Assembly: GCA_023819035.1 (NCBI GenBank) | Contig: JAMWCL010000008.1 | Span: forward strand, 1 to 37,786 | Direction: 5' to 3' | DNA length: 37,786 nucleotides | Source of the DNA: Candidatus Omnitrophota bacterium | GTDB taxonomy: Bacteria > Omnitrophota > Gorgyraeia > Gygaellales > Profunditerraquicolaceae | Shown here: positions 10,128 to 34,165 of the stretch, piece after piece | Position numbering within the stretch: the stretch's first letter is position 1 | Layout of the letters: every line of letters begins with the position of its first letter | Notes under the pieces: model-generated | The model's database searches: none | What the model was told of the DNA's origin: nothing | Seen by the model: only the letters and a program-made list of their open reading frames with translations | Translations under genes and position numbers: made by a program

Positions 10128-10131
10128 GTCT

Positions 10132-10953: not shown

Positions 10954-10954
10954 G

Positions 10955-15454: not shown

Positions 15455-15465
15455 AAAATATTTCT

Positions 15466-15471: not shown

Positions 15472-15476
15472 GAATA

Positions 15477-16475: not shown

Positions 16476-16783
16476 GGAAGTATTTTATTCTTTTAGGTTT
16501 GGTAATTTTGCTTTGCTATCTTAGTAATTTTATCCATGCTCAGGAGGAAAAGATAATCCTGGAGAATAAATTTGGTAATGTTACATTTTCTCACAAGTTA
16601 CATACAGAATCTATTTCTTGCCAGATTTGCCATCATAAAGGCTTAGATTCACCAAAATGTAGCGATTGCCATACGAAAGACACAGAAGTAAATTACATGA
16701 GTGCTTTTCACAGGAAATGCATAGATTGTCATAAGGAAAAAGCAAAAGGTCCGGTTTCCTGTAATGATTGTCACAAAAAATAA
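16472..16783 (+). CDS. Small tetrahaem c-type cytochrome (class III, c3-like)
   Basis: 103 residues with a signal peptide (about 1-23, cut after IHAQ or nearby) and an 80-residue mature domain. Four CxxCH haem sites are at residues 50-54, 63-67, 83-87 and 97-101. Outside these motifs exactly four other His remain in the mature part (41, 44, 55, 80), enough for bis-His ligation of all four haems. The N-terminal FSHKLH resembles the FxHxxH of cytochromes c3/c7. It is a periplasmic electron carrier. Its place between hemB and ahbD ties it to haem supply, and it is a plausible partner for the anchorless hydrogenase at 26427; both links are inference. Confidence 0.87.
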   Translation: MRKYFILLGLVILLCYLSNFIHAQEEKIILENKFGNVTFSHKLHTESISCQICHHKGLDSPKCSDCHTKDTEVNYMSAFHRKCIDCHKEKAKGPVSCNDCHKK

Positions 16784-18210: not shown

Positions 18211-18697
18211 AATAATTTCTATTTTAAGCCAATCCTTACCCATTACTGAAAAGCCATTCAGATTAATGGCAGAAAATATGGGTATAGATGAAAAAAGGCT
18301 TTTATTTAATTTAAAAGAATATAAGAGAAAGAAAATTATACGTAGATTTGGAGCAGTCTTAAACCATAGAAGGATAGGTCTAAAAGCAAATGCCTTAGTT
18401 TGTTGGAAGACAAAAGATGTAGATAAAATAGGTAAAATTTTAGCAAGCTATTCTGAAATTTCCCATTGTTATTTAAGAAGAACATATCCTTTCTGGCCAT
18501 ATAATCTTTATACAATGATTCATGCAGAAAATAAATCTAATCTTCTTAAGATCATAAAATCAATATCTAAAAAAATAAGAATATATGATTATAGGATACT
18601 TTATACTTTAAAGGAATTTAAAAAGAAGAGGCAAAATTTAGGTAAGATAAAAAGAGTCAAAAGAAATGAGATTTACCGAATCAAAGAGGTCATATAA
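18188..18697 (+). CDS. ahbB: Siroheme decarboxylase subunit B (Lrp/AsnC-like)
   Basis: 169 residues, a paralogue of AhbA. The diagnostic stretch SHCYLRRTYPFWPYNLYTMI holds the His, Tyr and Arg residues implicated in siroheme binding and decarboxylation. The winged-helix part carries RRFGAVLNHRRIGLKANALV, typical of AhbB and NirD/G/H/L proteins. It forms the heterodimer with AhbA for conversion of siroheme to 12,18-didecarboxysiroheme. The 3' end overlaps hemL by 32 bases. Confidence 0.88.
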   Translation: MQDLKSLKIISILSQSLPITEKPFRLMAENMGIDEKRLLFNLKEYKRKKIIRRFGAVLNHRRIGLKANALVCWKTKDVDKIGKILASYSEISHCYLRRTYPFWPYNLYTMIHAENKSNLLKIIKSISKKIRIYDYRILYTLKEFKKKRQNLGKIKRVKRNEIYRIKEVI

Positions 18698-19937
18698 AAA
18701 AGCAAAAAAATATTTAGTGGGTGGAGTAAATTCACCTGTAAGGGCATTTAAGGCCGTAGGGGGAAACCCCCTGTTTATTAAAAAGGCTAAAGGTTCAAAG
18801 ATTTATGATGTGGATAATAATGAATATATTGATTATGTGATGAGTTGGGGAGCAATTATCTTAGGACATAGTCATCCTCAGGTAATAAAGGAGATTAAGA
18901 AAACCATAGACTTAGGTACAAGTTTCGGTGCTCCTATTGAGAAGGAAACGGAATTGGCAAAGATTATAATTTCTGCCTTTCCTTCTATTGAGAAAATAAG
19001 ATTGGTAAATTCAGGAACTGAAGCTGTAATGAGTGCAATCAGGTTAGCCAGGGGATTTACAAAAAAGAACAAAATTATAAAATTTGAAGGTTGTTATCAC
19101 GGTCATTTTGATTCCTTATTAGTAAAAGCAGGTTCAGGGATTTTAACATTTGGTATTCCGCAATGTGCCGGGATAACTAAGGGTATAAGTAAGGATACAT
19201 ATGTTCTTCCCTTTAATGATATTGATAAAGTGGCAGAATTAATTAAAAGAAAAAATAAGGAAATTTCCTGTGTTATTGTTGAACCTATCTGTGGAAATAT
19301 GGGGTTAGTCTCACCAAAAGAAAATTTTTTATTTCATTTAAGGGAATTAACTAAAAGATATAATATTCTCTTAATATTTGATGAGGTAATTACAGGTTTT
19401 CGCCTTTGTTTTGGGGGTGCTCAGAATATTTATAAAATATCTCCCGATATAACCTGTCTGGGAAAGATAATTGGTGGAGGCTTTCCCCTGGCAGCCCTCG
19501 GAGGTAAAAAAGAAATTATGAAAGATTTAGCACCTGAAGGCAATGTCTATCAAGCAGGTACATTAGCAGGAAATCCTATAGCTGTAAGCGCAGGCCTTAC
19601 AACCTTAAAGATACTGTCTAAGATGGATTATAATGAATTAGAAAAAAAGACAGAAAAACTTTGTAGGGGTATTTCCCATATTTTAAAGAAGAAGAATATT
19701 GATTTTTGTTTAAATCATATAGGCTCAATGTTTTGTCTTTTCTTTACAAAAAAGAGGGTATTTGATCTTAACACAGCCATGACATCAGACACTAAAAAAT
19801 ATGCTTTTTATTTCTGGAAAATGATAAAAAATGGTATATACATTGCCCCTTCACAATTTGAGACAAATTTTCTATCCTTTTCACATTTAGAAGAAGATTT
19901 AGATTTTACATTAAGAGCATTTAAATGCGTCTTTTAA
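18666..19937 (+). CDS. hemL: Glutamate-1-semialdehyde 2,1-aminomutase
   Basis: 423 residues. PLP enzyme converting glutamate-1-semialdehyde to 5-aminolevulinate. The PLP lysine is Lys267 in CLGKIIGGGFPLAALGG; other marks are GGVNSPVRAFKAVGG, VNSGTEAVMSAIRLARG, EGCYHGHFD and the cofactor Asp in LIFDEVITGFR. Together with hemA it supplies ALA by the C5 route. The 3' end overlaps resB by 13 bases. Confidence 0.96.
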   Translation: MRFTESKRSYKKAKKYLVGGVNSPVRAFKAVGGNPLFIKKAKGSKIYDVDNNEYIDYVMSWGAIILGHSHPQVIKEIKKTIDLGTSFGAPIEKETELAKIIISAFPSIEKIRLVNSGTEAVMSAIRLARGFTKKNKIIKFEGCYHGHFDSLLVKAGSGILTFGIPQCAGITKGISKDTYVLPFNDIDKVAELIKRKNKEISCVIVEPICGNMGLVSPKENFLFHLRELTKRYNILLIFDEVITGFRLCFGGAQNIYKISPDITCLGKIIGGGFPLAALGGKKEIMKDLAPEGNVYQAGTLAGNPIAVSAGLTTLKILSKMDYNELEKKTEKLCRGISHILKKKNIDFCLNHIGSMFCLFFTKKRVFDLNTAMTSDTKKYAFYFWKMIKNGIYIAPSQFETNFLSFSHLEEDLDFTLRAFKCVF

Positions 19938-20932
19938 GATTATTATCCTCACCAAGATTAACTTTAATTCTTTTAGCAATTATTATTCTGGTATTAATTT
20001 TGGGGACATTAATTCCCCAGGGCTTATCCTCTCAAGAATATATCAAAAAATATGGCATAAATCTTTTTAGAATATTTAATTTCTTTAAGCTCACAAATCT
20101 TTATCATAGTTTTTGTTTCTTTTTTCTTCTGTTTCTTTTTGCATTTAATCTCTTTTTATGCACCTTAAGGAATCTTAAATCCAGAAAGAATACAGGTCTA
20201 ATTATTACCCATATAAGTATAATTGTAATATTATCTGGCTCATTAATTACTGCAATCTTTAGAAAAAAGGGTTTTCTGGGTATATATGAAGGCCAAATAA
20301 AAGAAGATTTTTTAATTGGAGAAAAATCTTTTCCCTTGAATTTTAAGATAATTTTGGAAGATTTTACTGTAGAATATTATGAACCTGATATTCACCAGCT
20401 CTATGTTTATTTAAAGGATAAAGATAAAAAATTCTTTTTCAAGGCAAAGAATTTAGAGAATTATAAAATTCCGGGCACAGATTATTCTTTTAGAATTCTA
20501 AAATATATCTGTGATTTTTTTATAGATGAATCTGGAAAGATAATAAATAAGTCTTTTCAACCAAAAAATCCCGCTGTTTTATTAGAGATAAAAACACCGC
20601 AGACAAAAGAAGAAAGATGGATATTCGCAAAAGAAAGGCCAAGGCATAAAGATTCAAATATAGAATTTTTTTATGATTTCAGAGAATTAATTAAAGATTA
20701 TAAAAGTAAAGTAAAGATAATTGAGGGAGAAAAAGTTTTAACCAAGACCATAAGGGTAAATGAACCCTTAAAGTATAAGGGCTATATTTTCTATCAAGCA
20801 AGTTACAATCCTGAAGAACCCGATTGGACAGGTTTACAGGTTTCAAAAGATCCTGGATATCCAGTTGTCTTTTTAGGTTTTATACTTTTAGTTATAGGTT
20901 TATTCGGTAATTTTTATAAAAAGAAAATATGA
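19925..20932 (+). CDS. resB: Cytochrome c biogenesis protein ResB (Ccs1)
   Basis: 335 residues. System II cytochrome c assembly factor that works with CcsA to deliver and attach haem to apocytochromes in the periplasm. Three N-terminal membrane helices (about 12-33, 58-80, 90-112), a large periplasmic domain and one C-terminal helix (about 310-330) match the Ccs1/ResB layout. Typical segments are SSPRLTLILLAIIILVLILG and LKYKGYIFYQASY. Shorter than many ResB proteins but with all parts. It overlaps ccsA by 4 bases. Confidence 0.88.
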   Translation: MRLLRLLSSPRLTLILLAIIILVLILGTLIPQGLSSQEYIKKYGINLFRIFNFFKLTNLYHSFCFFFLLFLFAFNLFLCTLRNLKSRKNTGLIITHISIIVILSGSLITAIFRKKGFLGIYEGQIKEDFLIGEKSFPLNFKIILEDFTVEYYEPDIHQLYVYLKDKDKKFFFKAKNLENYKIPGTDYSFRILKYICDFFIDESGKIINKSFQPKNPAVLLEIKTPQTKEERWIFAKERPRHKDSNIEFFYDFRELIKDYKSKVKIIEGEKVLTKTIRVNEPLKYKGYIFYQASYNPEEPDWTGLQVSKDPGYPVVFLGFILLVIGLFGNFYKKKI

Positions 20933-21699
20933 GATTTTCCTTATTTGAACTTACATTAATTTTTTACTTTTTATCAATTATATTTTATCTTTTGGATATT
21001 TTTAAAAATAAAAAAATTGGGGATAAAATTTTAATCCTGGGTTTTATATTTAACAGCCTTCTTATCTTTGAACGTTGGAGATTAGCACAGAGGCCACCCC
21101 TGGCTAATATGTATGAGGCGATAGTATTCTTCAGCTGGTCAGTGGCTTTAGCCTATTTAATCTTTGATCTTAAATTCAAATTAAGATTCTTAGGTTTATT
21201 TGTTGGAATTTTACTTAGCTTGAATTTTGTCTTTGCTTCTTTTTTAGATTCAGAAATTTATTCTTTAGTTCCTGCTTTAAGAAGCAACTGGTTGGCTATA
21301 CATGTAATCAGTTATTTTTTGGGATACGGTCTTTTAACCATTTCTTTTATTTTGAGTTTATTTTATCTTTTTTCTTTTAATAAATTATCTTTGGATATCT
21401 TAAAAAAATTTGATTTCTGGAGTTACCAGTTGGTTTCTTTTGGTTTTCTCTTTTTAACCATAGGCCTTCTTACAGGAGCGGTCTGGGCAAATGTTTGTTG
21501 GGGAAGTTATTGGAGCTGGGATCCAAAAGAAACCTGGGCTTTAATTACTTGGCTGATCTATTTATTCTATCTTCATTCTCGATATTTAGAAGGCGGGAAA
21601 GGGAAGAGATCTTTATATTTGAATCTCCTGGGATTCTTTTCTCTTCTCTTTACTTTTTTTGGTGTAAATTTTCTTCTCTCAGGGTTACACAGTTATTAG
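20929..21699 (+). CDS. ccsA: Cytochrome c assembly protein CcsA (CcsB/ResC-type) with intact WWD motif
   Basis: 256 residues, about eight membrane helices. The haem-handling WWD motif is complete (WGSYWSWDPKETWALITW), and the flanking His residues are present (in LRSNWLAIH and GLHSY). It forms the haem exporter/ligase of System II with ResB. Last gene of the haem operon. Its TAG stop (21697-21699) overlaps the stop of the convergent hypE by three bases plus one, so no terminator fits between the two operons. Confidence 0.93.
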   Translation: MRFSLFELTLIFYFLSIIFYLLDIFKNKKIGDKILILGFIFNSLLIFERWRLAQRPPLANMYEAIVFFSWSVALAYLIFDLKFKLRFLGLFVGILLSLNFVFASFLDSEIYSLVPALRSNWLAIHVISYFLGYGLLTISFILSLFYLFSFNKLSLDILKKFDFWSYQLVSFGFLFLTIGLLTGAVWANVCWGSYWSWDPKETWALITWLIYLFYLHSRYLEGGKGKRSLYLNLLGFFSLLFTFFGVNFLLSGLHSY

Positions 21700-22709
21700 C
21701 AGATACGGGGAAGCTGTTCTCCCGAAAGCATATCTAAGATGCGGAGAGAACCGATCCGTGTACGAATCAATACCTTGGGATGTTTAGATTTTTTAGTTAC
21801 CCTTCCAATAATAGAAGCATTTCTTCCCAAAGGGTGTCTTTGCATTACTCTTAATATTTTTTCTGATTCCTTGGGTGGTGCAAATATTATTACCTTTCCT
21901 TCATTAGCCATATATAGAGGGTCAACCCCTAAGATCTCGCAGAAACCCTTTACCTCTTCTCTAATAGGAAGCCTATCTTCATAGATTTCAATTTCTACAT
22001 TTGAGGAAATGGCAATCTCATTTAATGTAGTAGCCACTCCACCCCGCGTGGGATCCCGCATAACATGGATATTTTTACAGACCTTTAAGATTTTTTGAAT
22101 CATTTCATTTAAAGGTGCACAATCACTTCTTATAGGGGTCTTTAATTTATAATCTCCACGAGCAGACATCACTGCTGTTGCGTGGTCACCGATAAAACCA
22201 TTTATGATTATTTTATCTTCTCCTTTTGCATTTGAGGAGGTTATCTCTACTTCTGATTCTATTACTCCTATCCCATTTGTATTTATAAAGATTTGATCTG
22301 CGCTATTTTTTTCTACTACCTTTAGATCACCGCAGGCGATTCTTACCTGGCTAATTTCGGCAGCTCTTTTCATCGATCTAATAATTTTCTCCAAGATCTT
22401 AATCTCCAGTCCTTCCTCGATAATAAAACCCACGGAGAGATAAACCGGCTTTGCACCCATTACTGCTAAGTCATTGACTGTTCCAAAAACAGCCAATCTT
22501 CCAATGTCGCCTCCCCGGAAAAATAAGGGTTTGACCACAAAAGAATCGCAGGTAAAAGCTAATCTTCCTTTAAGATTAAATACCGCACTATCGTCTAATC
22601 TATTAAGGATTGGATTTGAAAAATTAGGAATAATTAATTCTCTGATTAGCTGATGGGCTAATTTACCACCACCACCGTGGCTCAAGAGTATTCTGGCTTC
22701 TTTTTTCAT
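21696..22709 (-). CDS. hypE: Hydrogenase maturation protein HypE
   Basis: 337 residues, PurM/AIR-synthase-like. HypE dehydrates an S-carbamoyl group on its C-terminal cysteine to thiocyanate, providing CN- for the NiFe site. The C-terminal PRIC ends in the required Cys337. The ATP-binding HGGGGKLAHQLI, DSAVFNLKGRLAFTCDSFVV and MRDPTRGGVATTLNEIA are typical. Last gene of the hypF-C-D-E operon. Start overlaps hypD by 4 bases. Confidence 0.95.
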   Translation of the reverse strand: MKKEARILLSHGGGGKLAHQLIRELIIPNFSNPILNRLDDSAVFNLKGRLAFTCDSFVVKPLFFRGGDIGRLAVFGTVNDLAVMGAKPVYLSVGFIIEEGLEIKILEKIIRSMKRAAEISQVRIACGDLKVVEKNSADQIFINTNGIGVIESEVEITSSNAKGEDKIIINGFIGDHATAVMSARGDYKLKTPIRSDCAPLNEMIQKILKVCKNIHVMRDPTRGGVATTLNEIAISSNVEIEIYEDRLPIREEVKGFCEILGVDPLYMANEGKVIIFAPPKESEKILRVMQRHPLGRNASIIGRVTKKSKHPKVLIRTRIGSLRILDMLSGEQLPRIC

Positions 22710-23788
22710 TGGTTATACTTATACCAGGCAGAGCAGGTTCCTTCCGATGAAACCATGCAAGGTCCGTAAGGATTTTCCGGAGTGCACTTTTTTCCGAATA
22801 ATTTGCATTGGTTAGGATTCCTTGTTCCCCTGAGAACTTGACCGCACAGACAACCTTTGGCTTCCTCTGATTTCTTTTCTTTTATTTTAAATTTATATTT
22901 GGCATCAAATTCTTGGTATTTTTTGTTTAATCGATATCCACTTTTTTTGATTATACCTAATCCTCGCCAATCCGCATCATCTATCTCAAAGACTCTTTTT
23001 AATATCCTCTGGGCTAATTTATTCCCCTCAGGTTTTACCGCACGTCTATACTGAATCTGTACTTCTGCTTTCTTTTGAGATATCTGTCTTAAGAGCATCA
23101 GGATAGATTCTAAGATATCGGTTGGTTCAAAGCCACTTATTACACAGGGTATTCTATAATCTCTGGCAATAAATTCATAGGCTCTACTTCCAATAATTGT
23201 AGATACATGACCGGGACAGATGAAACCATTCAGATTTAGCTCTTTTGCTTCCAAAATTGCTTTCATAGCAGGAGGGATGAGTTTATGATTACAGTAAATA
23301 GAAAAATTATCTATTTTTTCTTTCTTTGCATCCTCAATTACTGAGGCAACTGAAGGAGAGGTTGTCTCAAATCCAACCGCAAGAAAGATTATTTTTTTAT
23401 CCTTTTTGAGCTTAGCAATCTCTAAGGCATCGGATGCACTATAAACAATCCTTATATTAGAACCCTTTGCATGCTCTTTTTCTAAGGAACTTGTTGTCCC
23501 CGGTACTTTTACCATATCTCCAAAGGTAGCAATGATTACATTTTTGTTTCTAACTAAGCTGATCATCTGATCAATGTCTGATTGGCTGGTTACGCATACC
23601 GGACAGCCCGGGCCGGAAATGAGGTTGATATTTTTAGGAAACAGGTTTCTTATTCCTGATTTAAAGATCGCTACCGTATGGGTTCCGCAGACCTCCATAA
23701 GATTTACCCTCTCAATCTTTATTTTTTTTATTTCATTTAAGATCTTCTCTGCTATTCTTTTGTTTCTAAATTCATCTATGTATTTCAT
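22706..23788 (-). CDS. hypD: Hydrogenase maturation protein HypD
   Basis: 360 residues. HypD is the iron-sulfur scaffold on which Fe(CN)2CO is built with HypC. Recognised blocks are MEVCGTHTVAIFKSGI, LISGPGCPVCVTSQSDID, TFGDMVKVPGT, GFETTSPSVA and PCVISGFEPTDIL, and the C-terminal Cys set that binds the [4Fe-4S] cluster (GCLCGQVLRG...C...C...C). The N-terminus overlaps hypC by 4 bases. Confidence 0.96.
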   Translation of the reverse strand: MKYIDEFRNKRIAEKILNEIKKIKIERVNLMEVCGTHTVAIFKSGIRNLFPKNINLISGPGCPVCVTSQSDIDQMISLVRNKNVIIATFGDMVKVPGTTSSLEKEHAKGSNIRIVYSASDALEIAKLKKDKKIIFLAVGFETTSPSVASVIEDAKKEKIDNFSIYCNHKLIPPAMKAILEAKELNLNGFICPGHVSTIIGSRAYEFIARDYRIPCVISGFEPTDILESILMLLRQISQKKAEVQIQYRRAVKPEGNKLAQRILKRVFEIDDADWRGLGIIKKSGYRLNKKYQEFDAKYKFKIKEKKSEEAKGCLCGQVLRGTRNPNQCKLFGKKCTPENPYGPCMVSSEGTCSAWYKYNQ

Positions 23789-23991
23789 ATTCCTTCTAAG
23801 ATTTTCAATGTTTCTTTTGCCTCTCTTTTATTTATCTTCTCAATCCCGAATCCAGCATGAACAAGGATATAATCTCCGATTTTTAAATCTTCTAATAAAC
23901 GAACATCTACCTTACGCAAAACGCCGGCGATATCTACTTTTGCCAAATTCTTTTCAATACTTATAACCTTTGCCGGAATGGCTAAGCACAT
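23785..23991 (-). CDS. hypC: Hydrogenase maturation chaperone HypC
   Basis: 68 residues. Begins MCLAIPAKV, whose Cys2 binds the iron intermediate and HypD or the large-subunit precursor. The OB-fold core with ILVHAGFGIEKINKREA is typical. It shuttles the Fe(CN)2CO unit. It overlaps hypF by 10 bases and hypD by 4. Confidence 0.95.
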   Translation of the reverse strand: MCLAIPAKVISIEKNLAKVDIAGVLRKVDVRLLEDLKIGDYILVHAGFGIEKINKREAKETLKILEGI

Positions 23992-26258
23992 CTTGTGTTT
24001 GCGATTACTACCTGTCCTAAGGAGATAGCTCCATCATTTGTAGGTAGCAACTCATTAAAATAAACTTTAAATTTTGATCTTCTAAGAGAATTTACTAGGC
24101 TTTCAAGCAATAATTTATTTTGAAAGACTCCCCCTGAGAGGGCAATAGTATTTATATTTTTCTCTTTACGCAATAAAGAGCATACCCTTTGAATAATCTT
24201 TGTTAATCCATTATGAAATTTTCTTGCTATCTCTTCAATAGCTACTCTTTTCTCTAAATCTTCTACGATTTGCTTTATGACTCTTCTTGAATCGATGATA
24301 ATAACCTGCTTCTCTTTAAGTTCAAATTCGTATTGCCTGTTAGTCTTAGAACTTTCTGCTTTCATCTGTAACTCTATAGCTGCCTGCGCTTCATAGGTTA
24401 TTATATCACAAATTCCCAGTAACGAGCTAGTCGCATCAAAAAGTCTGCCGGCACTGGAGGTAAACGGAGAGTCATTCATAACCTTGACTATATTGTATAT
24501 TTTAGAGTGGTGCCTCTTTATAAAATCTATCCTTAATCTATATAGGTCTTCGCCGAAAGTCATATATAGATAACTTATTGCCATGCGATACGGTTCTTTT
24601 GTAGCCATATCTCCTCCCGGCATAGGCACATATTCTAAATGTGCGACTCTTTTTAAATCCTTTAAATCACCGCAGAAAAATTCTCCGCCCCAGATCTTTC
24701 CATCCAAACCTAAGCCAATTCCGTCAAAGGAGACCCCGATTACCTTTTCTTTTATTCTGTGTTCAGCAATGACACTTGCAATATGGGCTTTGTGATGTTG
24801 AATCCCGATTAATTTAACACCTTTAATTCTCTGGGCATAAGAAGTGGAGAGATAATCTGGGTGTAGATCAAAGGCAATAACCTCAGGCTTAATTGCAAAT
24901 AGATGCTTAAAACGCAATATCGTCTCTTTATAGAAATTAAAGGTAGAATAGGTTTTTAGATCTCCGATATATTGACTTAAAAAGGCAAATCTATTTTTTG
25001 TCAAACAGAAGGTATTCTTTAATTCCGCTCCACAACCAAGGATAGATCTCATCTTTCTATCTAACGGAAAAGGTAAGGGTGAATAACCCCTTGCTCTACG
25101 GAGAACAATGGGTTTATTATCTATTACTTGGACAATAGAATCATCACATCGATTATAGATATCACGATTGTGGATTAAGAAATAATCACAGATATCTCTT
25201 AAGTTATTTATTACCTTAAGATTTTCTATCTCTATAGGTTCATCCTGAATATTTCCACTGGTCATAACTAAACTCTTTATTCCTTTTAAAAATAGAAGAT
25301 AATGTAAGGGTGTATAAGGTAGCATTATCCCTAAGTAATTGTTATTAGGCGCTAAAGCTTCCGTAATTCTATTCCTTCTCTTTTTTTTAAGTAAAACGAT
25401 CGGTCTCTCTGGGCTATTTAAAATATCCTGTTCCAGTTTAGATACATAACAAATCTTCTTTATCTGGCTCATATCCTTTAGCATTATAGCAAAGGGTTTA
25501 AAAGGTCTTTTTTTCTTCTTGCGCAATCTTTTAATTACAGAGATATTTTCAGCATCACAGGCGATATGGAACCCCCCAATCCCTTTAATGGCGACAATCC
25601 CGCCCTTTTTTAATAAACTAATCACCTCCTCTATTGCCTGGAAGCCTTTAATCCTTTTTCTATCCCAGGGGCGGAATGAGTTTATCCTGATCAATTCTAC
25701 ATCTGGCCCACATAAAGAACAGGCATTTGGCTGGGCATGGTATCGGCGATCATTTATATCTTTGTATTCAGCCTCACAATCCCTGCACATTTTAAATTTC
25801 TTCATGGTTGTAAATTGCCGGTCATAGGGTAGGTCTTTAATAATTGAGAATCTTGGTCCACAGTTTGTGCAGTTGATAAAGGGATATAAATATCTTCTAT
25901 CAGAAGGGTTAAGTAATTCCTTCAGACAATCATTACAGATACTTACATCAGGTGAAATTAAGGCGGTATGGGCGGATGTCCTTTTACTCTCTTTAATCAC
26001 AAAATCTTTATACCCCTTTGGTTTTAGATACCTTATATGGCTATCGGTGATCCGGGCAAGGGGAGGTGTTTTGTTTTTTAGAGTTTGATAAAAATACAGG
26101 ATCTTTTTCCTTTCCCCTTCAACCTCTATCTCTACACCATTGGAGGTATTAGCTACAAATCCGAATAAGCCAAACCTTTCTCTTAAACGATGGATGAAGG
26201 GTCGGAAGCCCACTCCCTGAACAATACCTTCTAAATTTATTATTGCCCTGGTAGACAC
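23982..26258 (-). CDS. hypF: Carbamoyltransferase HypF
   Basis: 758 residues, full length. Domains in order: acylphosphatase-like (1 to about 90, EGIVQGVGFRPFIHRL), two zinc-finger motifs (CNDC...CTNC and CRDC...CSLC, about 108-185), YrdC-like (about 200-385, KGIGGFHIACDA, RPIVLLKK, MTSGN) and a Kae1-like domain (HHKAHIASV, SFDGIGLGLDG, SGGVFQN). It makes carbamoyl-AMP from carbamoyl phosphate and passes the group to HypE. The start is GTG at 26258, needed to keep the acylphosphatase strand. The -10 box ends only six bases before it, so the mRNA should be leaderless. Confidence 0.95.
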   Translation of the reverse strand: MSTRAIINLEGIVQGVGFRPFIHRLRERFGLFGFVANTSNGVEIEVEGERKKILYFYQTLKNKTPPLARITDSHIRYLKPKGYKDFVIKESKRTSAHTALISPDVSICNDCLKELLNPSDRRYLYPFINCTNCGPRFSIIKDLPYDRQFTTMKKFKMCRDCEAEYKDINDRRYHAQPNACSLCGPDVELIRINSFRPWDRKRIKGFQAIEEVISLLKKGGIVAIKGIGGFHIACDAENISVIKRLRKKKKRPFKPFAIMLKDMSQIKKICYVSKLEQDILNSPERPIVLLKKKRRNRITEALAPNNNYLGIMLPYTPLHYLLFLKGIKSLVMTSGNIQDEPIEIENLKVINNLRDICDYFLIHNRDIYNRCDDSIVQVIDNKPIVLRRARGYSPLPFPLDRKMRSILGCGAELKNTFCLTKNRFAFLSQYIGDLKTYSTFNFYKETILRFKHLFAIKPEVIAFDLHPDYLSTSYAQRIKGVKLIGIQHHKAHIASVIAEHRIKEKVIGVSFDGIGLGLDGKIWGGEFFCGDLKDLKRVAHLEYVPMPGGDMATKEPYRMAISYLYMTFGEDLYRLRIDFIKRHHSKIYNIVKVMNDSPFTSSAGRLFDATSSLLGICDIITYEAQAAIELQMKAESSKTNRQYEFELKEKQVIIIDSRRVIKQIVEDLEKRVAIEEIARKFHNGLTKIIQRVCSLLRKEKNINTIALSGGVFQNKLLLESLVNSLRRSKFKVYFNELLPTNDGAISLGQVVIANTRCA

Positions 26259-26426: not shown

Positions 26427-27371
26427 ATGAGATTAACAAGACGTGAATTTTTGAAGTTATGTAGTGCCTCGGCTATTGGGATGGGGATCTCTCAGTTATT
26501 CATCCCTGAGGTGGTAGAGGCATTGGAAGAAGCAGCAAGAGGAAAACCACCGGTTATCTGGATTCAAGGTGCCGGTGATAGTGGTTGCTCAGTTTCTCTA
26601 CTTAATACCTGTCATCCCTCAATTGCGGAAGTCTTACTTAAGATCATCTCTCTCCATTATCACCCTACCCTTATGGCCTCTGCAGGAGATCTAGCAGTCT
26701 TATATTTAGATGTAATCTCTAAGAAAGCAAAAAGAAATTTCTTCTTGGTAGTTGAAGGCGCAATCCCTACGGGTGCAGAAGGTAGGTTTTGTACTATCGG
26801 TGCAAGAAATGGAAGACACATTACTCTCTTAGAGGCAGTAAGGGATCTGGGTGCAAAATCTAAGGCAGTGATTGCTTTAGGTACCTGTGCTACCCATGGC
26901 GGGATCCCTTCCGCTAAACCCAATCCCACAGAAGCAAGGTCAGTAAAAGAGGTCATAGAGGGGATTCCAATTATAAATATTCCTGGTTGTCCTAGCCATC
27001 CGGATTGGTTCGTGGGCACCTTGGTTCATGTCCTTCTTTTTGGAATCCCGGATTTGGACAATGAATTAAGGCCAAAAATCTTCTTTTCAGACACAGTCCA
27101 TCAGAATTGCTCCAATTACTCTTACTTTAATAATGGAGAATTTGCCAAGAAATTTGGTGATAAAGGATGCTTGATCCAGTTGGGTTGTAAAGGAGCGATC
27201 ACGAATTCAGATTGTCCATTAAGGAGGTGGAATTCGAGAGTGAGCTGGTGTGTAGAATCTGGAGCTCCCTGTATTGGTTGTTGTTCACCTGGCTTTCCGG
27301 ATTTAGTCTCACCGCTGTATACAGCCATACCTGAAAAACTCTGGCCAGAAAGAGAATCGGCATTAGTTTAA
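26427..27371 (+). CDS. [NiFe] hydrogenase small subunit, Tat-exported, group 1-like
   Basis: 314 residues. The Tat signal (LTRREFLKL, hydrophobic part to about residue 32) sends the folded heterodimer to the periplasm. Iron-sulfur ligands by position: proximal cluster Asp51 (where Cys is usual, in GAGDSGCSVSLLN), Cys54, Cys154 and Cys188; distal cluster His225, Cys228, Cys248 and Cys254; medial cluster Cys263, Cys275, Cys282 and Cys285. Cys275 (in SWCVES) occupies the place of the Pro that normally leaves a [3Fe-4S] medial cluster. There is no C-terminal membrane helix and no cytochrome b gene nearby, so electrons probably go to a soluble cytochrome c. A strong Shine-Dalgarno precedes the start. 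Confidence 0.93.
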   Translation: MRLTRREFLKLCSASAIGMGISQLFIPEVVEALEEAARGKPPVIWIQGAGDSGCSVSLLNTCHPSIAEVLLKIISLHYHPTLMASAGDLAVLYLDVISKKAKRNFFLVVEGAIPTGAEGRFCTIGARNGRHITLLEAVRDLGAKSKAVIALGTCATHGGIPSAKPNPTEARSVKEVIEGIPIINIPGCPSHPDWFVGTLVHVLLFGIPDLDNELRPKIFFSDTVHQNCSNYSYFNNGEFAKKFGDKGCLIQLGCKGAITNSDCPLRRWNSRVSWCVESGAPCIGCCSPGFPDLVSPLYTAIPEKLWPERESALV

Positions 27372-27381: not shown

Positions 27382-28794
27382 ATGATGGCAAAGAAGATTA
27401 TAATCGATCCAATTAGCCGGATTGAAGGACACCTAGGAATAGAGGTAGAGGTAGAAAAAGGTAAGGTTGTAGATGCTAAAGCCTTAGCTACTCTATTTAG
27501 AGGATTTGAGATAATCTTAAAAGGTAGGGATCCTCGAGATGCTCTCCATTTAACCCAACGCATCTGTGGAGTATGCTCTGCTTCCCATGCGCGAGCAGCA
27601 GTGGAGAATTTAGATAGTGCCTTTGGTGTAACCCCTCCGGATAACGCAAGAATCATCAGGAATTTGGTTCAAGGGGCAAACTATCTACATTCTCATATCT
27701 TACATTTCTACCATTTAGCTGCTTTAGATTATGTAATTGGTCCAGAAGCACCCCCATTTATTCCGCGTGTAAAAGGAGATTATCGTCTACCCAAAGAGAT
27801 AAATGATAAATGTGTCTCCCATTATTTAGAAGCACTAAAAATAAGGATGCTTTGCCATGAGATGCGCGCCCTATTTGCTGGAAAGGCACCCCACCATGTT
27901 GGTTTTGTTCCCGGTGGGGTTACCTGTCAGCCCACTGTAGATAGGATTGCGGGTTATCTCTGGCGCTTACGTAAGGTTAAGGATTTTATCGACAGTGTCT
28001 ATTTGCCCGATGTCCTGGCAATTGCTGATGTGTATAAGGATTATAAAAAGATCGGTTCTGGATATAAGAACCTCTTATCCTATGGTGTCTTTGATTTGGA
28101 TGCAAGTGGTAAGAATAAATTATTAAAGCGGGCAAGATATACAAATGGAAGGCTTTTAGAGGTTGATCCGGCAAAGATCACTGAGGAGGTAAAGTATTCT
28201 TGGTATAATGATGAGACCTCAGGGAAAAATCCTGCATTTGGTGAGACTTTACCCCAGCCGGATAAACTCGAAGGCTATTCTTGGGCAAAGGCACCAAGAT
28301 ATGATGGCTTGCCTCATGAAGTAGGGGCATTAGCAAGGATGTGGGTAAATGGTGATTATAGAGAAGGGATCTCTGTAATTGACCGGCATGTTGCTAGGGC
28401 TTTAGAGGCACAGAAGATCGCTGATGCCTTGGAAGGATGGCTTTTACAATTAAAGCCAGGTTCACCTATTTATAATGATTGCGATGTTCCTGAATCTGCA
28501 ATTGGTATGGGTTTAACTGAAGCACCCCGTGGTGCTTTAGGACATTGGATTAGGATTAAAGATAGGAAGATTGAGAATTATCAATGTGTTGTTCCTACCA
28601 CCTGGAATGTCTCGCCTCGGGATGATAAAGGAGTGAGAGGTCCTGTTGAGGAGGCGTTGGTTGGTGTTCCGGTTAAAGATCCAGATAATCCTATTGAAGT
28701 CTTAAGAGTGGTGCGTTCATTTGATCCCTGTATTGCCTGCACAGTCCATCTTATTAAACCTAATGGCGAGATGAAGAAGTTCCACGTTATGTAA
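27382..28794 (+). CDS. [NiFe] hydrogenase large subunit, group 1-like
   Basis: 470 residues. The NiFe site ligands are Cys62 and Cys65 (RICGVCSASH) and Cys450 and Cys453 (DPCIACTVH). After His456 a 14-residue tail (LIKPNGEMKKFHVM) should be removed by the protease encoded next. Other group 1 marks are IDPISRIEGHLGIEVEV and FEIILKGRDPRDALHLTQR. It oxidises H2 in the periplasm and travels with the small subunit through Tat. Two ATGs (27382 and 27385) follow a GGAGG; the second has better spacing. The short length matches soluble uptake hydrogenases. Confidence 0.95.
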   Translation: MMAKKIIIDPISRIEGHLGIEVEVEKGKVVDAKALATLFRGFEIILKGRDPRDALHLTQRICGVCSASHARAAVENLDSAFGVTPPDNARIIRNLVQGANYLHSHILHFYHLAALDYVIGPEAPPFIPRVKGDYRLPKEINDKCVSHYLEALKIRMLCHEMRALFAGKAPHHVGFVPGGVTCQPTVDRIAGYLWRLRKVKDFIDSVYLPDVLAIADVYKDYKKIGSGYKNLLSYGVFDLDASGKNKLLKRARYTNGRLLEVDPAKITEEVKYSWYNDETSGKNPAFGETLPQPDKLEGYSWAKAPRYDGLPHEVGALARMWVNGDYREGISVIDRHVARALEAQKIADALEGWLLQLKPGSPIYNDCDVPESAIGMGLTEAPRGALGHWIRIKDRKIENYQCVVPTTWNVSPRDDKGVRGPVEEALVGVPVKDPDNPIEVLRVVRSFDPCIACTVHLIKPNGEMKKFHVM

Positions 28795-28807: not shown

Positions 28808-29251
28808 ATGAGGCTTATCATTGGCTGTGGGAATCTCCTTCTAAAGGATGAGGGAGTGGGTGTTCATCTTATTGAATACTTAAAAGATAAAGAACTCCCC
28901 GAAGATGTAGAATTAATCGATGGTGGAACTGCGGGGTTTGACTTAATTGATTTTATCTTAGGAAAAGAAAAGGTAGTAATTATAGATAGTGTAAAAGCCG
29001 GAGGAAATCCCGGAGATATTTATTGTTTTTCTCCTTCTGATTTTGAGACGGATAATCCCCCAAAGACCTCCCTCCATGATATCACTTTAAAAGATATATT
29101 CTCAATTGTTCAAAGACAAGATAATCTTGTTGAAATAAAAATCATTGGAATTGAACCAAAAGATATAAGTTATGGAACAGAATTATCACCGGAATTAAAA
29201 AATTTATTACCCAAAATTGCTGAAATTGTCTTAAAAGAGGTCAATGCATGA
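28808..29251 (+). CDS. Hydrogenase maturation endopeptidase (HyaD/HybD family)
   Basis: 147 residues. Clips the C-terminal tail of the nickel-loaded large subunit. Probable nickel-sensing residues are Glu15 (KDEGVGVHL), the Asp in VVIIDSVKAGG and the His in TSLHDITLKD, matching the Glu/Asp/His triad of HybD. The N-terminal IIGCGNLLLKDEGVG is diagnostic. The ATG of the hypA-like gene lies inside its last codons. Confidence 0.93.
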   Translation: MRLIIGCGNLLLKDEGVGVHLIEYLKDKELPEDVELIDGGTAGFDLIDFILGKEKVVIIDSVKAGGNPGDIYCFSPSDFETDNPPKTSLHDITLKDIFSIVQRQDNLVEIKIIGIEPKDISYGTELSPELKNLLPKIAEIVLKEVNA

Positions 29252-29480
29252 GTTAGCTTTAGCCCAAGAGATCTTAAATCTTGCCTTGAAAGAGTCAGAG
29301 GGTAAAAAAATTATCTCAATTACTATTTCTCTAGCGGAAAATGGTCATATTACAGCTCAATCCTTAAGAGAGGCCTTCTATCTGGTTTCTCAAGGGACAT
29401 TAGCTGAAAGCGCAAAGCTTAAGATCAAAAAAACAAATGACTTAGAAATTCAAGTCAAAGAATTAGAGGTTGAAAATTGA
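29244..29480 (+). CDS. HypA-like nickel chaperone lacking the zinc domain
   Basis: 78 residues, against about 113-118 for HypA. The N-terminus MHELALAQEIL has the nickel-binding MHE (His2, Glu3). The helix-strand core with ITISLAENGHITAQSLREAF and LVSQGTLAESAKLKIKK follows HypA closely. The zinc ribbon that normally carries CxxC...CxxC is absent: the text runs directly from KLKIKKTND to LEIQVKELEVEN, which matches the last strand of HypA. The gap looks like an in-frame excision of the zinc loop, not a truncation. No cysteine remains at all. HypB is not encoded in this window. Confidence 0.8.
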   Translation: MHELALAQEILNLALKESEGKKIISITISLAENGHITAQSLREAFYLVSQGTLAESAKLKIKKTNDLEIQVKELEVEN

Positions 29481-29541
29481 TCCTGTCTAATCTAAAACTT
29501 AAAGAAACAATTTTAAAATGGTAAGCTCTTATAAAAAATAA

Positions 29542-29778
29542 ATAATCAAAAAGGAGTTAGATGTTTAATATTGGAATGCCAGAATTAATTTTGATCTTTG
29601 TTGTTGCCTTAATTATCTTTGGTCCAAAGAAACTTCCGGAGATTGGTAGGCAGATTGGAAAGGCCCTGTCTATGTTTAAGAAAGCAAGTTTAGATATAAA
29701 AGATGCATTAGAAGAAGAGCCACCCGAAGAGATAAAAGAGGAGGTTAAAGCTAAGATTGAAGAAAAAAATAAAGAAGA
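29542..29778 (+). repeat. 237-bp exact direct repeat, copy 1 (tatA with its ribosome-binding site)
   Basis: Compared base by base, this stretch is identical to 31657-31893 (offset 2115). It begins 19 bases before the tatA ATG, includes the AAGGAG site and ends four bases before the stop codon of this copy. The flanks on both sides are unrelated between copies. Confidence 0.9.
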
Positions 29779-29782
29779 GTAA
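29561..29782 (+). CDS. tatA: TatA, copy 1
   Basis: 73 residues: one N-terminal transmembrane helix (about 7-20), the hinge motif [14 protein letters not shown] and an amphipathic helix ([17 protein letters not shown]) followed by an acidic, lysine-rich tail. TatA polymerises to form the twin-arginine translocation passage. The protein is identical to copy 2 over all 73 residues. Good AAGGAG site six bases upstream. Lies 80 bases after the hypA-like gene, probably in the hydrogenase operon, whose small subunit needs Tat. Confidence 0.92.
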
Positions 29783-29844
29783 ATTTATTATGATATAAAA
29801 CATAAAAGGGAGTCAAAAATTATTAGACCGAACAGAAGGTGGGA

Positions 29845-31227
29845 ATGAAGAGATACTTAATGGGAATATTGATTCTACTGCTTCTGGGGTATATTTCTTC
29901 TTATGCTGGTGAGGTAAAGATTCAAGATAGGAGCATTAAAGGTGGCGTAATCCTGCGTATCCGGCATGAGTATTGGAAGAATTTGTTTGATATGAACAAC
30001 GCTAGCTTAGATAACCGTAACTTCTTTAGGTTTAGGCCGAGTCTTTGGGCACAAACAGATTTTAACAAGAATATGAGTTTATATTTGCGTTTAACCAATG
30101 AGTTTCGCGCGCATATCTATTTTGGAGGTAGATCAGGAACCTTTCCTGATAAGAATGCCAATAAAAAGGGTTATCACTTTGATATTAACGAGGTATTCTT
30201 TGACAACCTGTATTTAGATTTAAAGAATGTGTTAGGTCTACCTTTAGATTTATGCATTGGAAGGCAGGATCTTTTAGGATATGGCGAAGGGTTTATCCTT
30301 ATGGATGGTACCCCGGGTGATGGTGGAAGAAGTTTATATTTTAATGCTGCTAAAGCTACCTGGTGGATTGACGAGAATAATACCTTAGATTTGATTTATA
30401 TCAATAACCCGCGCGATGAAGAGTTCTTACCTTTGATTAATAAATTCAAATTTAGAGACTACCGTTATCCCACAAGGGATCCTTTATTACAAAATCTTTC
30501 CACTACTGATGAACAGGGTGGAGTAATCTATCTAAAAAATAAGGCAATTAAGAACCTTAATTTAGAAGCCTACTATGTTTATAAATATGAAGCAGAAGAA
30601 GGAGGGGTGGGTGCACAAGCAGAAAAATGCAAGCTTAACACCATTGGCTCCTTTGTTAAATATAGCCTTGCTCCTTGGGCAATTAGAGCTCAGATAGCGG
30701 GTCAGTTTGGAGATTATGGTAATGAGGATAGAACTGGTTTAGGTGCTTATGCTTATTTAGATAGGGAATTTAAAGAGGCGATCTATTCACCCAGTGCTAC
30801 CATTGGTTATATCTTCTTATCCGGTGATAAGACTACGACAAGTAAAAACGAAGGCTGGGATCCCATCTTCTCCCGTTGGGGATGGCTCTCTGAGCTCTAT
30901 GTATACAGTATGGCTATTGATACCTCTATATCCTATTATTGGACTAACCTTTCTGTCCTGCGCGCATTATTGGCCTTAAAGCCAACCGAGGCTTCTAAGC
31001 TTACTTTGGTTTACAATCATCTTTGGGCAGATGAGAAGACCACCGCAAGTGCGGTGCGTTCAGGAACCAGCAAGGATAGGGGTCATCTTCTTCAACTAAG
31101 ATTTGATTATCCCTTCAATAAAAATATCAACGGTTATATCCTGGTAGAATATTTTAAGCCAGGAGACTTTTATGTTGAGAAAGATAGTGCCTTGTTCTTA
31201 AGAACCGAAGCTAACTTTAAATTCTAA
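29845..31227 (+). CDS. Outer-membrane beta-barrel, alginate-export/porin-like
   Basis: 460 residues from the ATG at 29845 (a GTG six bases earlier is possible). Signal peptide about 1-21 (KRYLMGILILLLLGYISSYAG), followed by alternating polar/aromatic strands and a C-terminal ANFKF ending in Phe, the usual outer-membrane sorting signal. Segments such as FRFRPSLWAQTDFNKNMSLY, ELYVYSMAIDTS and LLQLRFDYPFNKNINGYILV resemble the alginate_exp barrel family seen in many non-model diderms. Substrate unknown. It sits between two identical tatA copies, so it may have been inserted by a duplication event. Confidence 0.72.
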   Translation: MKRYLMGILILLLLGYISSYAGEVKIQDRSIKGGVILRIRHEYWKNLFDMNNASLDNRNFFRFRPSLWAQTDFNKNMSLYLRLTNEFRAHIYFGGRSGTFPDKNANKKGYHFDINEVFFDNLYLDLKNVLGLPLDLCIGRQDLLGYGEGFILMDGTPGDGGRSLYFNAAKATWWIDENNTLDLIYINNPRDEEFLPLINKFKFRDYRYPTRDPLLQNLSTTDEQGGVIYLKNKAIKNLNLEAYYVYKYEAEEGGVGAQAEKCKLNTIGSFVKYSLAPWAIRAQIAGQFGDYGNEDRTGLGAYAYLDREFKEAIYSPSATIGYIFLSGDKTTTSKNEGWDPIFSRWGWLSELYVYSMAIDTSISYYWTNLSVLRALLALKPTEASKLTLVYNHLWADEKTTASAVRSGTSKDRGHLLQLRFDYPFNKNINGYILVEYFKPGDFYVEKDSALFLRTEANFKF

Positions 31228-31656: not shown

Positions 31657-31893
31657 ATAATCAAAAAGGAGTTAGATGTTTAATATTGGAATGCCAGAAT
31701 TAATTTTGATCTTTGTTGTTGCCTTAATTATCTTTGGTCCAAAGAAACTTCCGGAGATTGGTAGGCAGATTGGAAAGGCCCTGTCTATGTTTAAGAAAGC
31801 AAGTTTAGATATAAAAGATGCATTAGAAGAAGAGCCACCCGAAGAGATAAAAGAGGAGGTTAAAGCTAAGATTGAAGAAAAAAATAAAGAAGA
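31657..31893 (+). repeat. 237-bp exact direct repeat, copy 2
   Basis: Identical to 29542-29778. Here the repeat runs into tatC: it contains the AGGAGGT (31854-31860) and TTG (31872) that appear to start tatC, so this copy is probably the ancestral location. Confidence 0.9.
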
Positions 31894-31903
31894 ATTCCAT
31901 TGA
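31676..31903 (+). CDS. tatA: TatA, copy 2
   Basis: 75 residues, the same 73 residues as copy 1 plus Phe-His at the end because the repeat stops just before the stop codon. Layout as for copy 1: N-terminal helix, FGPKK hinge, amphipathic helix, charged tail. It overlaps tatC by 32 bases, a typical coupled tatA-tatC arrangement. Confidence 0.92.
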
Positions 31904-32618
31904 TGAGCCAGTTCCTCTGTTAGTGCACCTCTCAGAACTGAGAAAGAGGATAATCCATTCTTTAATAGCTATTATTTTATGCAGTATAATTATGTGGCCA
32001 TTTATGAATAAGGTATTAGAATCACTTGCCCGGCCTTTAGGTAAGCTTGTTTTTATCTCCCCTTTTGAAGCCTTCTGGATAAGGATAAAATTATCCTTCT
32101 TTTTAGGCTTAATTTTGAGTTTACCCTTTGTCTTATTTCAAATCTGGAATTTTATTCAGAAAGGACTGTTACCTAGAGAGAAGAGATTCATTCTACCTTT
32201 AACAATTTCTTCTCTTTTTCTTTTTTATCTGGGAGGTCTTTTTGCTTACTTTTTAATTCTACCTGTGGGTATGAAGTTTTTACTTTCTTATGGCTCAGAG
32301 ACATTGGTTCCCATGATTTCTGTATCCAGATATCTCTCTTTTTTACTTTGTCTTGTTTTTTCCTTTGGATTGATCTTTGAATTACCTTTGGTAGTAGGGT
32401 TCTTGACTTCGTTTGGGATATTAAAATCTGATGGTCTTAAAAGAAATAGAAAGGTCGCCATCTTAGGTATATTTATCGCTGCTGCCGCTTTAACTCCTGG
32501 TCCAGATATCTTTTCTCAATTACTTTTGGCAGTTCCCCTTTTAATTTTATATGAGATCGGAATCTTAGTCTCAAAATTTATAGAAAGGAGGAGATGTGGG
32601 AAGAATCGGTCTACCTGA
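31872..32618 (+). CDS. tatC: Sec-independent translocase TatC
   Basis: 248 residues from a TTG at 31872, six membrane helices. The cytosolic signal-binding motif [14 protein letters not shown] near the N-terminus and the [23 protein letters not shown] segment are diagnostic; TatC is the twin-arginine receptor. The start is uncertain: no ATG in frame precedes the conserved motif, and the TTG lies inside tatA with AGGAGGT 11 bases upstream. Serves export of the hydrogenase encoded nearby. Confidence 0.9.
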
Positions 32619-32803: not shown

Positions 32804-33295
32804 ATGCTTGAAGAAAAGAGAGGAGAATATCAGTTAGTAATTTTTAAAATTGGAAAAGAGGAATTTGGTGTAGATATATCTCAGGTAAGAGAGATTGTGA
32901 GATTATTAGATATCACTTACATGCCTAAAGCACCTTCCTTTATCGAAGGTGTGGTTAATTTAAGAGGTCAAATTGTAGCTATTATTGATTTAGCAAAGCG
33001 ATTGGGTATTCCTTCAAATCCCCGTGGAGATTCTACAAGAATCATTGTTATTGAGATTGAAAAGAATACGGTGGGTATGATCGTGGATTCGGTATCAGAG
33101 GTATTGAGAATTCCTTCAGAAAATATTGAGGAGATACCAGCAATTATTCAAACAGAGGTGCCTGAACATTATATCCGGGGTGTGGGAAAACTAAAGGATA
33201 GGCTTTTGGTCTTATTAGATTTAAACCGTGTGCTTAGTGCTGAAGAGGTAACCCGGATTGAGCGGATAAGGAAAGAAGAGGTAGAGGAGGCATAA
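32804..33295 (+). CDS. cheW: Chemotaxis coupling protein CheW
   Basis: 163 residues, one CheW domain over the whole length. Typical blocks are FKIGKEEFGVDISQVREIV, FIEGVVNLRGQIVAIIDLAKRLG and the C-terminal LLVLLDLNRVLS. CheW links receptors to the CheA kinase. It begins a four-gene unit with two periplasmic cytochromes and a haem-containing receptor; no cheA is in the window. The stop overlaps the next start by one base. Confidence 0.94.
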   Translation: MLEEKRGEYQLVIFKIGKEEFGVDISQVREIVRLLDITYMPKAPSFIEGVVNLRGQIVAIIDLAKRLGIPSNPRGDSTRIIVIEIEKNTVGMIVDSVSEVLRIPSENIEEIPAIIQTEVPEHYIRGVGKLKDRLLVLLDLNRVLSAEEVTRIERIRKEEVEEA

Positions 33296-33729
33296 TGAGA
33301 AGAAAAACAGGATTTTTGGTTTTATTTTTGATTCTTTCTACCTTAATATTTGCTCAAGAACAGTCTACTTATGTAGGAGTAGATAAATGTATGCTCTGCC
33401 ATCCCCAAGAATCTCAAGATTATAAGGCAAGAAAGTTTGCCAAGTCCTGGCAAGTCCTACAGATGCGCGAAAAGACAAAAGACCCTGAATGCTTGAAATG
33501 CCATACGACCGGATTTGGAGAACCTTCAGGTTTTGTCTCTGAGGAGCAAACTCCCCATTTAAAATATAAGCAATGCGAGGCCTGTCATGGTCCGGGAAGC
33601 CTGCATGCAAATAATCCTGGAGATCTTAAGTTAAGAGAAGAAATAAAGAAATATGCAGAAAGGCCAGATACTTGTACTAAATGTCATAAGGGTGTTATTG
33701 CCCATCGTGTAGGAGTAAAAGGATTTTAA
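33295..33729 (+). CDS. Tetrahaem c-type cytochrome, c554-like, copy 1
   Basis: 144 residues. Signal peptide about 1-20 (ends IFAQ), then CxxCH sites at residues 32-36, 66-70, 94-98 and 127-131. The YVGxDKCxxCHP start and the [15 protein letters not shown] and [12 protein letters not shown] blocks resemble cytochrome c554/perC-like multihaem proteins with family tendency to electron transfer. It shares an exact 167-bp core with the next gene. Strong AGGAGG upstream (overlapping cheW). It is probably periplasmic and haem-loaded by ResB/CcsA; partner unknown. Confidence 0.87.
   Translation: MRRKTGFLVLFLILSTLIFAQEQSTYVGVDKCMLCHPQESQDYKARKFAKSWQVLQMREKTKDPECLKCHTTGFGEPSGFVSEEQTPHLKYKQCEACHGPGSLHANNPGDLKLREEIKKYAERPDTCTKCHKGVIAHRVGVKGF
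33455..33621 (+). repeat. 167-bp exact repeat in cytochrome copy 1
   Basis: Identical to 33900-34066 (offset 445). It covers codons about 54-109 of the cytochrome, including haem sites 2 and 3. One mismatch occurs at its left edge (33454), after which a further 14 bases agree again; other flanks differ markedly. Confidence 0.88.
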
Positions 33730-33742
33730 GGAGGAAAGATAG

Positions 33743-34165
33743 ATGAAGAAGATTATTTTGTTGGGATTATTTATTTTTATAATCTTAAATAATGGCTTTA
33801 CCCAAGAACGTAAATATGTGGGAATGGATAAATGTAAGGCCTGTCATCCAAAGAATTATGAGGCTTATTCAGAGAGAAAATTTTCCAAGTCCTGGCAAAT
33901 CCTACAGATGCGCGAAAAGACAAAAGACCCTGAATGCTTGAAATGCCATACGACCGGATTTGGAGAACCTTCAGGTTTTGTCTCTGAGGAGCAAACTCCC
34001 CATTTAAAATATAAGCAATGCGAGGCCTGTCATGGTCCGGGAAGCCTGCATGCAAATAATCCTGGAAACCCTGAATATAGAAAGCAGATGGCCCCATATA
34101 AATATGGAGAGGAGAATCCCTGTCTAAAATGCCATGTCTGTATGCGCACACATAGAACAGAATAA
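33743..34165 (+). CDS. Tetrahaem c-type cytochrome, c554-like, copy 2
   Basis: 140 residues. Signal peptide about 1-21 (ends FTQ), CxxCH sites at residues 31-35, 65-69, 93-97 and 127-131. The core from about residue 53 to 108 is identical to copy 1 at DNA level, while the N- and C-terminal parts are clearly diverged but homologous. The C-terminus has an extra Cys (HVCMRTH) not in a CxxCH. Preceded by AAGGAGG. Followed 17 bases later by the receptor gene. Confidence 0.86.
33900..34066 (+). repeat. 167-bp exact repeat in cytochrome copy 2
   Basis: Second copy of 33455-33621. Synonymous sites are identical across the whole stretch, unlike the flanking parts of the two genes, which fits recent gene conversion. 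Confidence 0.88.

Follow-up and report, generated by a model that had tools for sequence, protein, structure and literature searches.

A short, zinc-less HypA in a [NiFe]-hydrogenase operon of Candidatus Omnitrophota as a candidate nickel-insertion factor

A stretch of 37,786 nt from a Candidatus Omnitrophota bacterium (the window; contig JAMWCL010000008.1 of assembly GCA_023819035.1, a 1.25-Mb draft genome of 92.6% completeness) encodes a HypA protein that lacks the zinc ribbon. We consider it probable, at roughly 0.75, that this protein (mini-HypA) is a working nickel-insertion factor dedicated to the adjacent exported hydrogenase HupSL, and that it acts without a zinc domain and without HypB.

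The mini-hypA gene comprises 78 codons, opens with ATG CAT GAG and translates to MHELALAQEILNLALKESEGKKIISITISLAENGHITAQSLREAFYLVSQGTLAESAKLKIKKTNDLEIQVKELEVEN. The N-terminal Met-His-Glu nickel motif of canonical HypA is present at residues 1-3, the CxxC zinc site is missing, and the protein contains no cysteine. The Pfam profile for HypA (PF01155) matched residues 1-64 with 40.4 bits (curated cut-off 28.9), and only positions 1-67 of the 112 profile positions were covered. The NCBIfam equivalog model TIGR00100 (hypA) gave 35.8 bits, which is far below its cut-off of 88.1, and standard annotation could therefore miss the gene. Since the zinc site is missing and the equivalog score lies below the cut-off, we filed the protein as a zinc-less HypA and not as a canonical HypA. 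Alignment with full-length relatives revealed a single gap, about 35 columns wide, that coincides exactly with the CxxC...CxxC ribbon; the last strand (LEIQVKELEVEN) is retained and aligns behind it. The same alignment showed a second deletion of 3-4 residues in the loop between helix 1 and strand 1. All three forward frames at positions 29381-29600 around the joint were free of CxxC, so no frameshift hides the zinc loop. The original prediction had described a cysteine-free protein of 78 residues that begins with MHE, keeps the HypA core and its last strand and skips the zinc loop in frame; profile and alignment confirmed this and revealed a clean excision of the ribbon. As judged from these matches mini-HypA is homologous to HypA, and it probably works like the nickel-binding half of that protein.

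The original prediction had also proposed a structural comparison with HypA, and the protein was modelled with high confidence in the HypA fold. The AlphaFold2 model, built from an alignment of 36 rows, reached a pLDDT of 90.6 and a pTM of 0.78 and comprised a helix (residues 2-18), a strand (23-31), a second helix (38-49) and two further strands (58-64 and 70-76). In this model the sheet is predicted to close without the ribbon. The best matches in the PDB were all HypA proteins, which share the alpha/beta core fold: the query TM score was 0.87 for 3A43_B and for chains of the HyhL-HypA complex, and 0.72 for the HypAB-Ni complex. Known HypA structures include those from T. kodakarensis (3A43, 5AUN, 5YXY) and H. 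pylori (6G81).

The positions of all features are listed in Table 1. The genes hupS, hupL, the protease gene and mini-hypA follow each other on one strand, hypF, hypC, hypD and hypE are divergent, and the genes for TatA and TatC lie downstream. Mini-hypA is thus accompanied by hydrogenase structural and maturation genes, as is canonical hypA. HupL retains the motifs RICGVC and DPCIAC, and its C-terminal tail (LIKPNGEMKKFHVM) after DPCIACTVH would be available for removal by the protease. The putative Shine-Dalgarno sequence of mini-hypA is located inside the protease gene, 2 nt ahead of the start codon. Among the relatives, 46 short hypA genes were found directly downstream of a hydrogenase protease gene; 37 of these overlapped, and the commonest overlap was exactly the 8 nt seen in the window. 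The statement that all neighbouring maturation genes are intact was true for hypC, hypD, hypE and hypF; hypB was absent from the window, and the maturation set is therefore incomplete.

Some other genes of the window were recorded. An outer-membrane protein of the Alginate_exp type is encoded between tatA and tatC, which is unusual in a hydrogenase operon. Two adjoining small multihaem cytochromes are encoded on the downstream side of the Tat and CheW genes; genes for siroheme decarboxylase/haem and for cytochrome assembly are present at positions 9555-21699. The hydrogenase of the window may feed a cytochrome chain.

Table 1. Positions of the features in the window and of the related loci discussed in the text.
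Feature	Sequence	Positions	Strand	Remark
Siroheme-decarboxylase/haem and cytochrome-assembly genes	Window	9555-21699		
HypE (AIR-synthase type)	Window	21696-22709	-	From Pfam domains and position
HypD	Window	22706-23788	-	
HypC	Window	23785-23991	-	68 aa
HypF	Window	23982-26258	-	Cyanide-ligand synthesis
HupS	Window	26427-27371	+	[NiFe]-hydrogenase small subunit; twin-arginine signal RREFLK
HupL	Window	27382-28794	+	[NiFe]-hydrogenase large subunit; 470 aa
Hydrogenase maturation protease	Window	28808-29251	+	HycI/HupD family; 147 aa
Shine-Dalgarno-like AGAGGT	Window	29236-29241	+	Putative, read from the sequence
Overlap ATGCATGA	Window	29244-29251	+	8 nt; protease stop falls within the first three mini-hypA codons (M-H-E)
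Zinc-less HypA (mini-HypA)	Window	29244-29480	+	78 aa; MHE nickel motif, zinc ribbon excised
TatA/B/E-type protein	Window	29561-29782	+	Export of folded hydrogenase
Alginate_exp-type outer-membrane protein	Window	29839-31227	+	
TatC	Window	31872-32618	+	
Two multihaem cytochromes (Cytochrome_C554 family)	Window	33295-34165		
FeoA-FeoB-NikR-mini-HypA, then CbiM/CbiQ-type Ni/Co ECF transporter genes	L060 (G036)	1251-8999		
Second HypA-like gene	L058	6516-6767	+	His2 lost
Second HypA-like gene	L059	1586-1837	-	His2 lost
HypC-HydE-HydG triple fusion	L066 (G040)	11651-14395	+	915 aa; directly after mini-hypA
Setting 1: protease - mini-hypA - hypF - hypC - hypD - hypE	e.g., L131, L146, L162			After membrane-hydrogenase/antiporter-like subunits
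Setting 2: mini-hypA at the head of a group 3b-like operon	e.g., L067, L081, L085			
Setting 3: large subunit - protease - mini-hypA - hypC-hydE	L061-L065, L125			
HypC-HydE loci, part 1	L061-L065, L066, L070, L072, L076-L078, L080, L081, L083, L088, L089			
HypC-HydE loci, part 2	L125, L128-L130, L133, L136-L138, L143, L148, L150, L152, L160, L174			

We suggest the following order of events for the maturation of HupSL. HypF, HypE, HypC and HypD would build the Fe(CN)2CO group on apo-HupL. Mini-HypA would be translated from the overlapping start right after the protease, and its translation would thereby be coupled to that of the next-acting enzyme. It would carry Ni(II) at its N-terminal M1-H2-E3, dock on the open large subunit and release the nickel into the HupL site without a HypB nucleotide cycle or a zinc site. 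The protease, which recognises the nickel-loaded large subunit, would then cut off the HupL tail, and the Tat system would export the mature hydrogenase. Nickel binding and hydrogenase activity depend on His2 of HypA, and in E. coli HypA can bind its large subunit when HypB is absent (PMC7055735). Mutants of H. pylori HypA in the zinc-site cysteines lose part or most of the hydrogenase activity (PMC7055735), and the loss of the zinc domain would therefore need some compensation. Both nickel/iron cysteine motifs and the final His were kept in 41 large subunits of the fetched loci, including that of the window. An association of short HypA with cofactor-less large subunits was rejected, since the cysteine motifs were intact.

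The fetched loci contained about 90 HypA proteins without CxxC, which originated from 87 Omnitrophota genomes. They were 77-98 aa in length with a mode of 80, plus one protein of 113 aa. About 31-35 residues were missing between the same two strands, with a few more residues retained in G146. Most of 90 short proteins started with MHE (80), some with MHD (7) and one with MHN, and M1-H2 was kept in 88. The two exceptions (MEE and MQD) were second copies in G063 and G064. These two HypA-like genes lie two genes from hydG-hydF, with one gene on the opposite strand in between, and perhaps represent a HypA fold turned to another use. An alignment of 36 diverse short HypA proteins had M1 and H2 as the only invariant columns, and E3 was conserved to at least 90%. 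Among 128 genomes of the window's order, about 33 had a match confined to profile positions 1-72 and about 22 had a full HypA match (both counted by eye), and the two classes rarely occurred together. Both classes recurred across the phylum (384 genomes). Other short HypA proteins, for which the original prediction had proposed a search, were thus found in numbers. They were not confined to the hydrogenase type of the window: phylum-wide, several [NiFe] types have a zinc-less HypA beside them, and this one is therefore no special case. We also scanned 84,980 named genomes with a clade A pattern (clade A, the closest relatives of the window gene, is described below). The carriers of the short gene were MAGs of Candidatus Omnitrophota that came from several studies independent of each other; the scan reaches only clade A-like sequences, and within this range no short HypA was found outside Omnitrophota. 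Matches in Thermus, Acidobacteria, Clostridia, Proteobacteria and others were of full length with CxxC pairs. A search of open-licence papers yielded no report of a short or zinc-less HypA, and the papers on Omnitrophota genomes did not mention hypA.

The conservation of the N-terminus bears on the possibility that mini-HypA is a docking scaffold, which would have kept the surface for the large subunit but would carry no nickel, the metal arriving by diffusion or through another protein. The lack of a zinc domain, and hence of a high-affinity site of the HypAB type, would fit such a role. His98 of HypA takes part in the nickel site of the HypAB complex from Thermococcus (PMC7055735). This residue is located between the CxxC pairs (73-76 and 110-113), in the part that is missing from mini-HypA, and the known structure implies that a HypB-dependent nickel site of this type could not form in the short protein. 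The second copies in G063 and G064 have lost His2, so members of the family may at times give up nickel binding. Nevertheless, M1-H2-E3 is the only near-invariant part of the 36 short sequences, and a pure scaffold would have no need of exactly the nickel site. In one genome (G036), mini-hypA is located in a nikR/Ni-Co-transporter locus (Table 1), and this context supports a nickel function across the family as inferred from gene content. HypD, HypF and HydG were not found in the G036 genome. Since the window copy keeps His2, a scaffold, which the original prediction had considered as an alternative, is less likely there, and we regard it as improbable. The proposal of a minimal nickel chaperone fared better: its pairing with the HupSL operon, the MHE motif, the low dN/dS values and the failure to find a second full HypA or a HypB in the genome speak for it, although it is not exclusive to this type of hydrogenase.

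Nickel insertion by mini-HypA would have to proceed without the usual partner. We searched for HypB, the GTPase/ATPase partner of canonical HypA, with the CobW/HypB family profiles PF02492 and TIGR00073. The search of the genome, which the original prediction had proposed, revealed no HypB in the window or elsewhere in the host, of which 92.6% is covered by the draft, and a HypB gene could lie in the missing part. All 128 genomes of the order, among them the host, stayed below the TIGR00073 cut-off. Among 80 chosen genomes, HypB was above the cut-off in 3 of 38 with only short HypA versus 13 of 38 with only full HypA (Fisher p 0.01, uncorrected for kinship). In two of the three HypB-bearing genomes with short HypA, hypB was located immediately behind the short hypA. 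In L155 (G240) and L157 (G168), a zinc-less HypA is encoded directly upstream of a full-length HypB that scored above the cut-off. By sequence, the ribbon was lost independently in these two genomes and HypB was kept, and the loss of the zinc domain therefore does not strictly follow from that of HypB. In the order of the window, HypB is also often missing from genomes with a full HypA. A strict co-loss of zinc domain and HypB was rejected because of both observations. We conclude that loss of the ribbon accompanies loss of HypB without requiring it. Open-licence papers contained no report of maturation without HypB.

A missing partner could also be replaced by a separate one, if mini-HypA paired with a zinc-ribbon protein encoded on its own or with an NTPase that escaped recognition, e.g., one of the MinD/Mrp type. 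Archaeal HypB-type NTPases of the MinD/Mrp type, outside the CobW/HypB family, do exist. ATP-hydrolysing archaeal HypB homologues, which speak for such an arrangement, have been mentioned (PMC12134894), and divergent G3E-type matches with 38-54 bits were detected in six genomes of the order. These weak matches were found in genomes other than those of clade A, and no such gene recurred beside mini-hypA in the fetched loci, where the neighbours were the protease, HypF/C/D/E, HypC-HydE and hydrogenase subunits. The only match to the zinc part of PF01155 in the host was the zinc lid of an adenylate kinase, which was also dismissed as a second HypA. We consider a split arrangement slightly less probable than a scaffold and retain mini-HypA as a nickel-insertion factor that probably acts on its own.

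Conservation of the gene was analysed in its closest relatives. Clade A comprises the window and the genomes G014, G077, G002, G063 and G064, and had an SH-aLRT support of 99. The five other orthologues are 77-78 aa in length with 44-53% identity to the window protein, and the short gene of this clade is also present in other genera of the window's family. Clade A is tied to the HupSL operon, with mini-hypA directly after the protease gene in five of the six genomes, i.e., wherever this junction was assembled. L056/L057, the most similar pair in clade A, showed a dN of 0.125 and a dS of 0.97 (ratio 0.13), and the ratios of short HypA, from 113 usable pairs, had a median of 0.13 and a maximum of 0.29. 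Short HypA is under purifying selection. No second HypA was found in the host by the PF01155 search of the 92.6%-complete draft, and the full-length copy that the original prediction had named as refuting evidence was thus not detected. The view that decay is unlikely was borne out by low dN/dS, by the conserved MHE and by independent assemblies. It is hardly credible that the gene is an artefact of faulty assembly or a dispensable hypA that was recently shortened by an in-frame deletion: the genomes are mostly drafts or MAGs and the G146 lineage has its deletion inside an otherwise full-length group, but the same length and the same joint recur in independent public assemblies and among about 90 sequences, purifying selection is strong, old clades have their own conserved signatures, and the start codon of mini-hypA is coupled to the protease gene.

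A tree of 134 HypA proteins, based on 80 columns only, required six changes between short and full forms. Its well-supported branches force at least three changes, while the deeper order is poorly supported with 80 columns. A single origin of short HypA was therefore rejected, and the tree indicates at least three losses of the zinc module. Two independent losses can be read by eye, one in G146 in comparison to its full-length congener G292, and one in G240/G168 in comparison to the full-length G389 of the same family. The G146 locus (L151) encodes an 88-aa HypA with the CxxC ribbon deleted and other members of the genus have the full-length protein, which marks G146, as read from these sequences, as a recent independent loss.

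Across the family, short hypA genes recurred in three main settings (Table 1). HypC was fused N-terminally to HydE in 30 fetched loci, as identified by motif and with the families verified on a sample. The fusion gene was usually followed by Rex and/or HydG, and its neighbours were a [NiFe] large subunit or membrane-hydrogenase genes, the protease and, except in L089, zinc-less HypA. In G040 (2 contigs, 96% complete), the triple fusion was above the cut-off for both HydE (304 bits) and HydG (515 bits). Genomes with HypC-HydE mostly lacked HypD and HypF and often HydF. Most genomes of settings 2 and 3 without a hypFCDE operon lacked HypD and HypF, and their large subunits keep all four cysteines. 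HydG was above the cut-off in 20 of 21 genomes with setting 3 versus none of 12 with short HypA in a hypFCDE operon. HydF is needed for [FeFe] enzymes. It was above the cut-off in only 5 of the 20 HydG genomes with setting 3 and in 4 of 15 group 3b-like HydG genomes. This distribution suggests that these [NiFe] enzymes receive their Fe(CN)2CO from [FeFe]-type maturases. HydG was not found in the genome of the window, which has HypCDEF instead, and this reading does not apply there. No report of HypC-HydE fusions or of HydG in [NiFe] maturation was found in open-licence papers. We consider it an even bet that Omnitrophota rebuilt [NiFe] maturation: a zinc-less HypA would insert the nickel, in most cases with no HypB, and in the many lineages that lack HypDEF the Fe(CN)2CO unit would be made from CO and cyanide derived from HydG and passed via HydE to the fused HypC. 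The organism of the window would then combine the change in HypA with classical HypCDEF.

Apparently, a helper much simpler than the textbook version is enough to insert nickel into hydrogenases. The zinc-less HypA proteins of Omnitrophota, mostly without HypB, represent a natural experiment that parts the two halves of the protein and tells which half suffices for nickel insertion. What the zinc module and the HypB cycle contribute becomes directly testable with a protein of 80 residues, which also offers a compact component for producing [NiFe] hydrogenases in heterologous hosts. The HypC-HydE(-HydG) fusions, if true to their context, would link two hydrogenase cofactor pathways that were hitherto treated as separate.

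Mini-HypA shares with HypA (PF01155) the N-terminal MHE, two helices, a three-stranded sheet including the C-terminal strand and the location in a hydrogenase operon, and homology is indicated by the Pfam profile and by a profile search of the PDB. It differs from HypA by the lack of the CxxC pairs, the zinc ribbon and the segment with His98, and no HypB was found in its genome. The [FeFe]-hydrogenase maturases HydE and HydG are in many relatives encoded beside zinc-less HypA, with fusion to HypC, unlike in the genome of the window with HypCDEF and no detected HydG. Nickel supply by SlyD/HypB concerns the same maturation step, but HypB was not found in the host. HybF of E. coli, the HypA paralogue for hydrogenases 1 and 2 (PMC7055735), is likewise devoted to particular hydrogenases and encoded together with their operon; in contrast to mini-HypA, it is a full-length protein with a zinc site and works with HypB.
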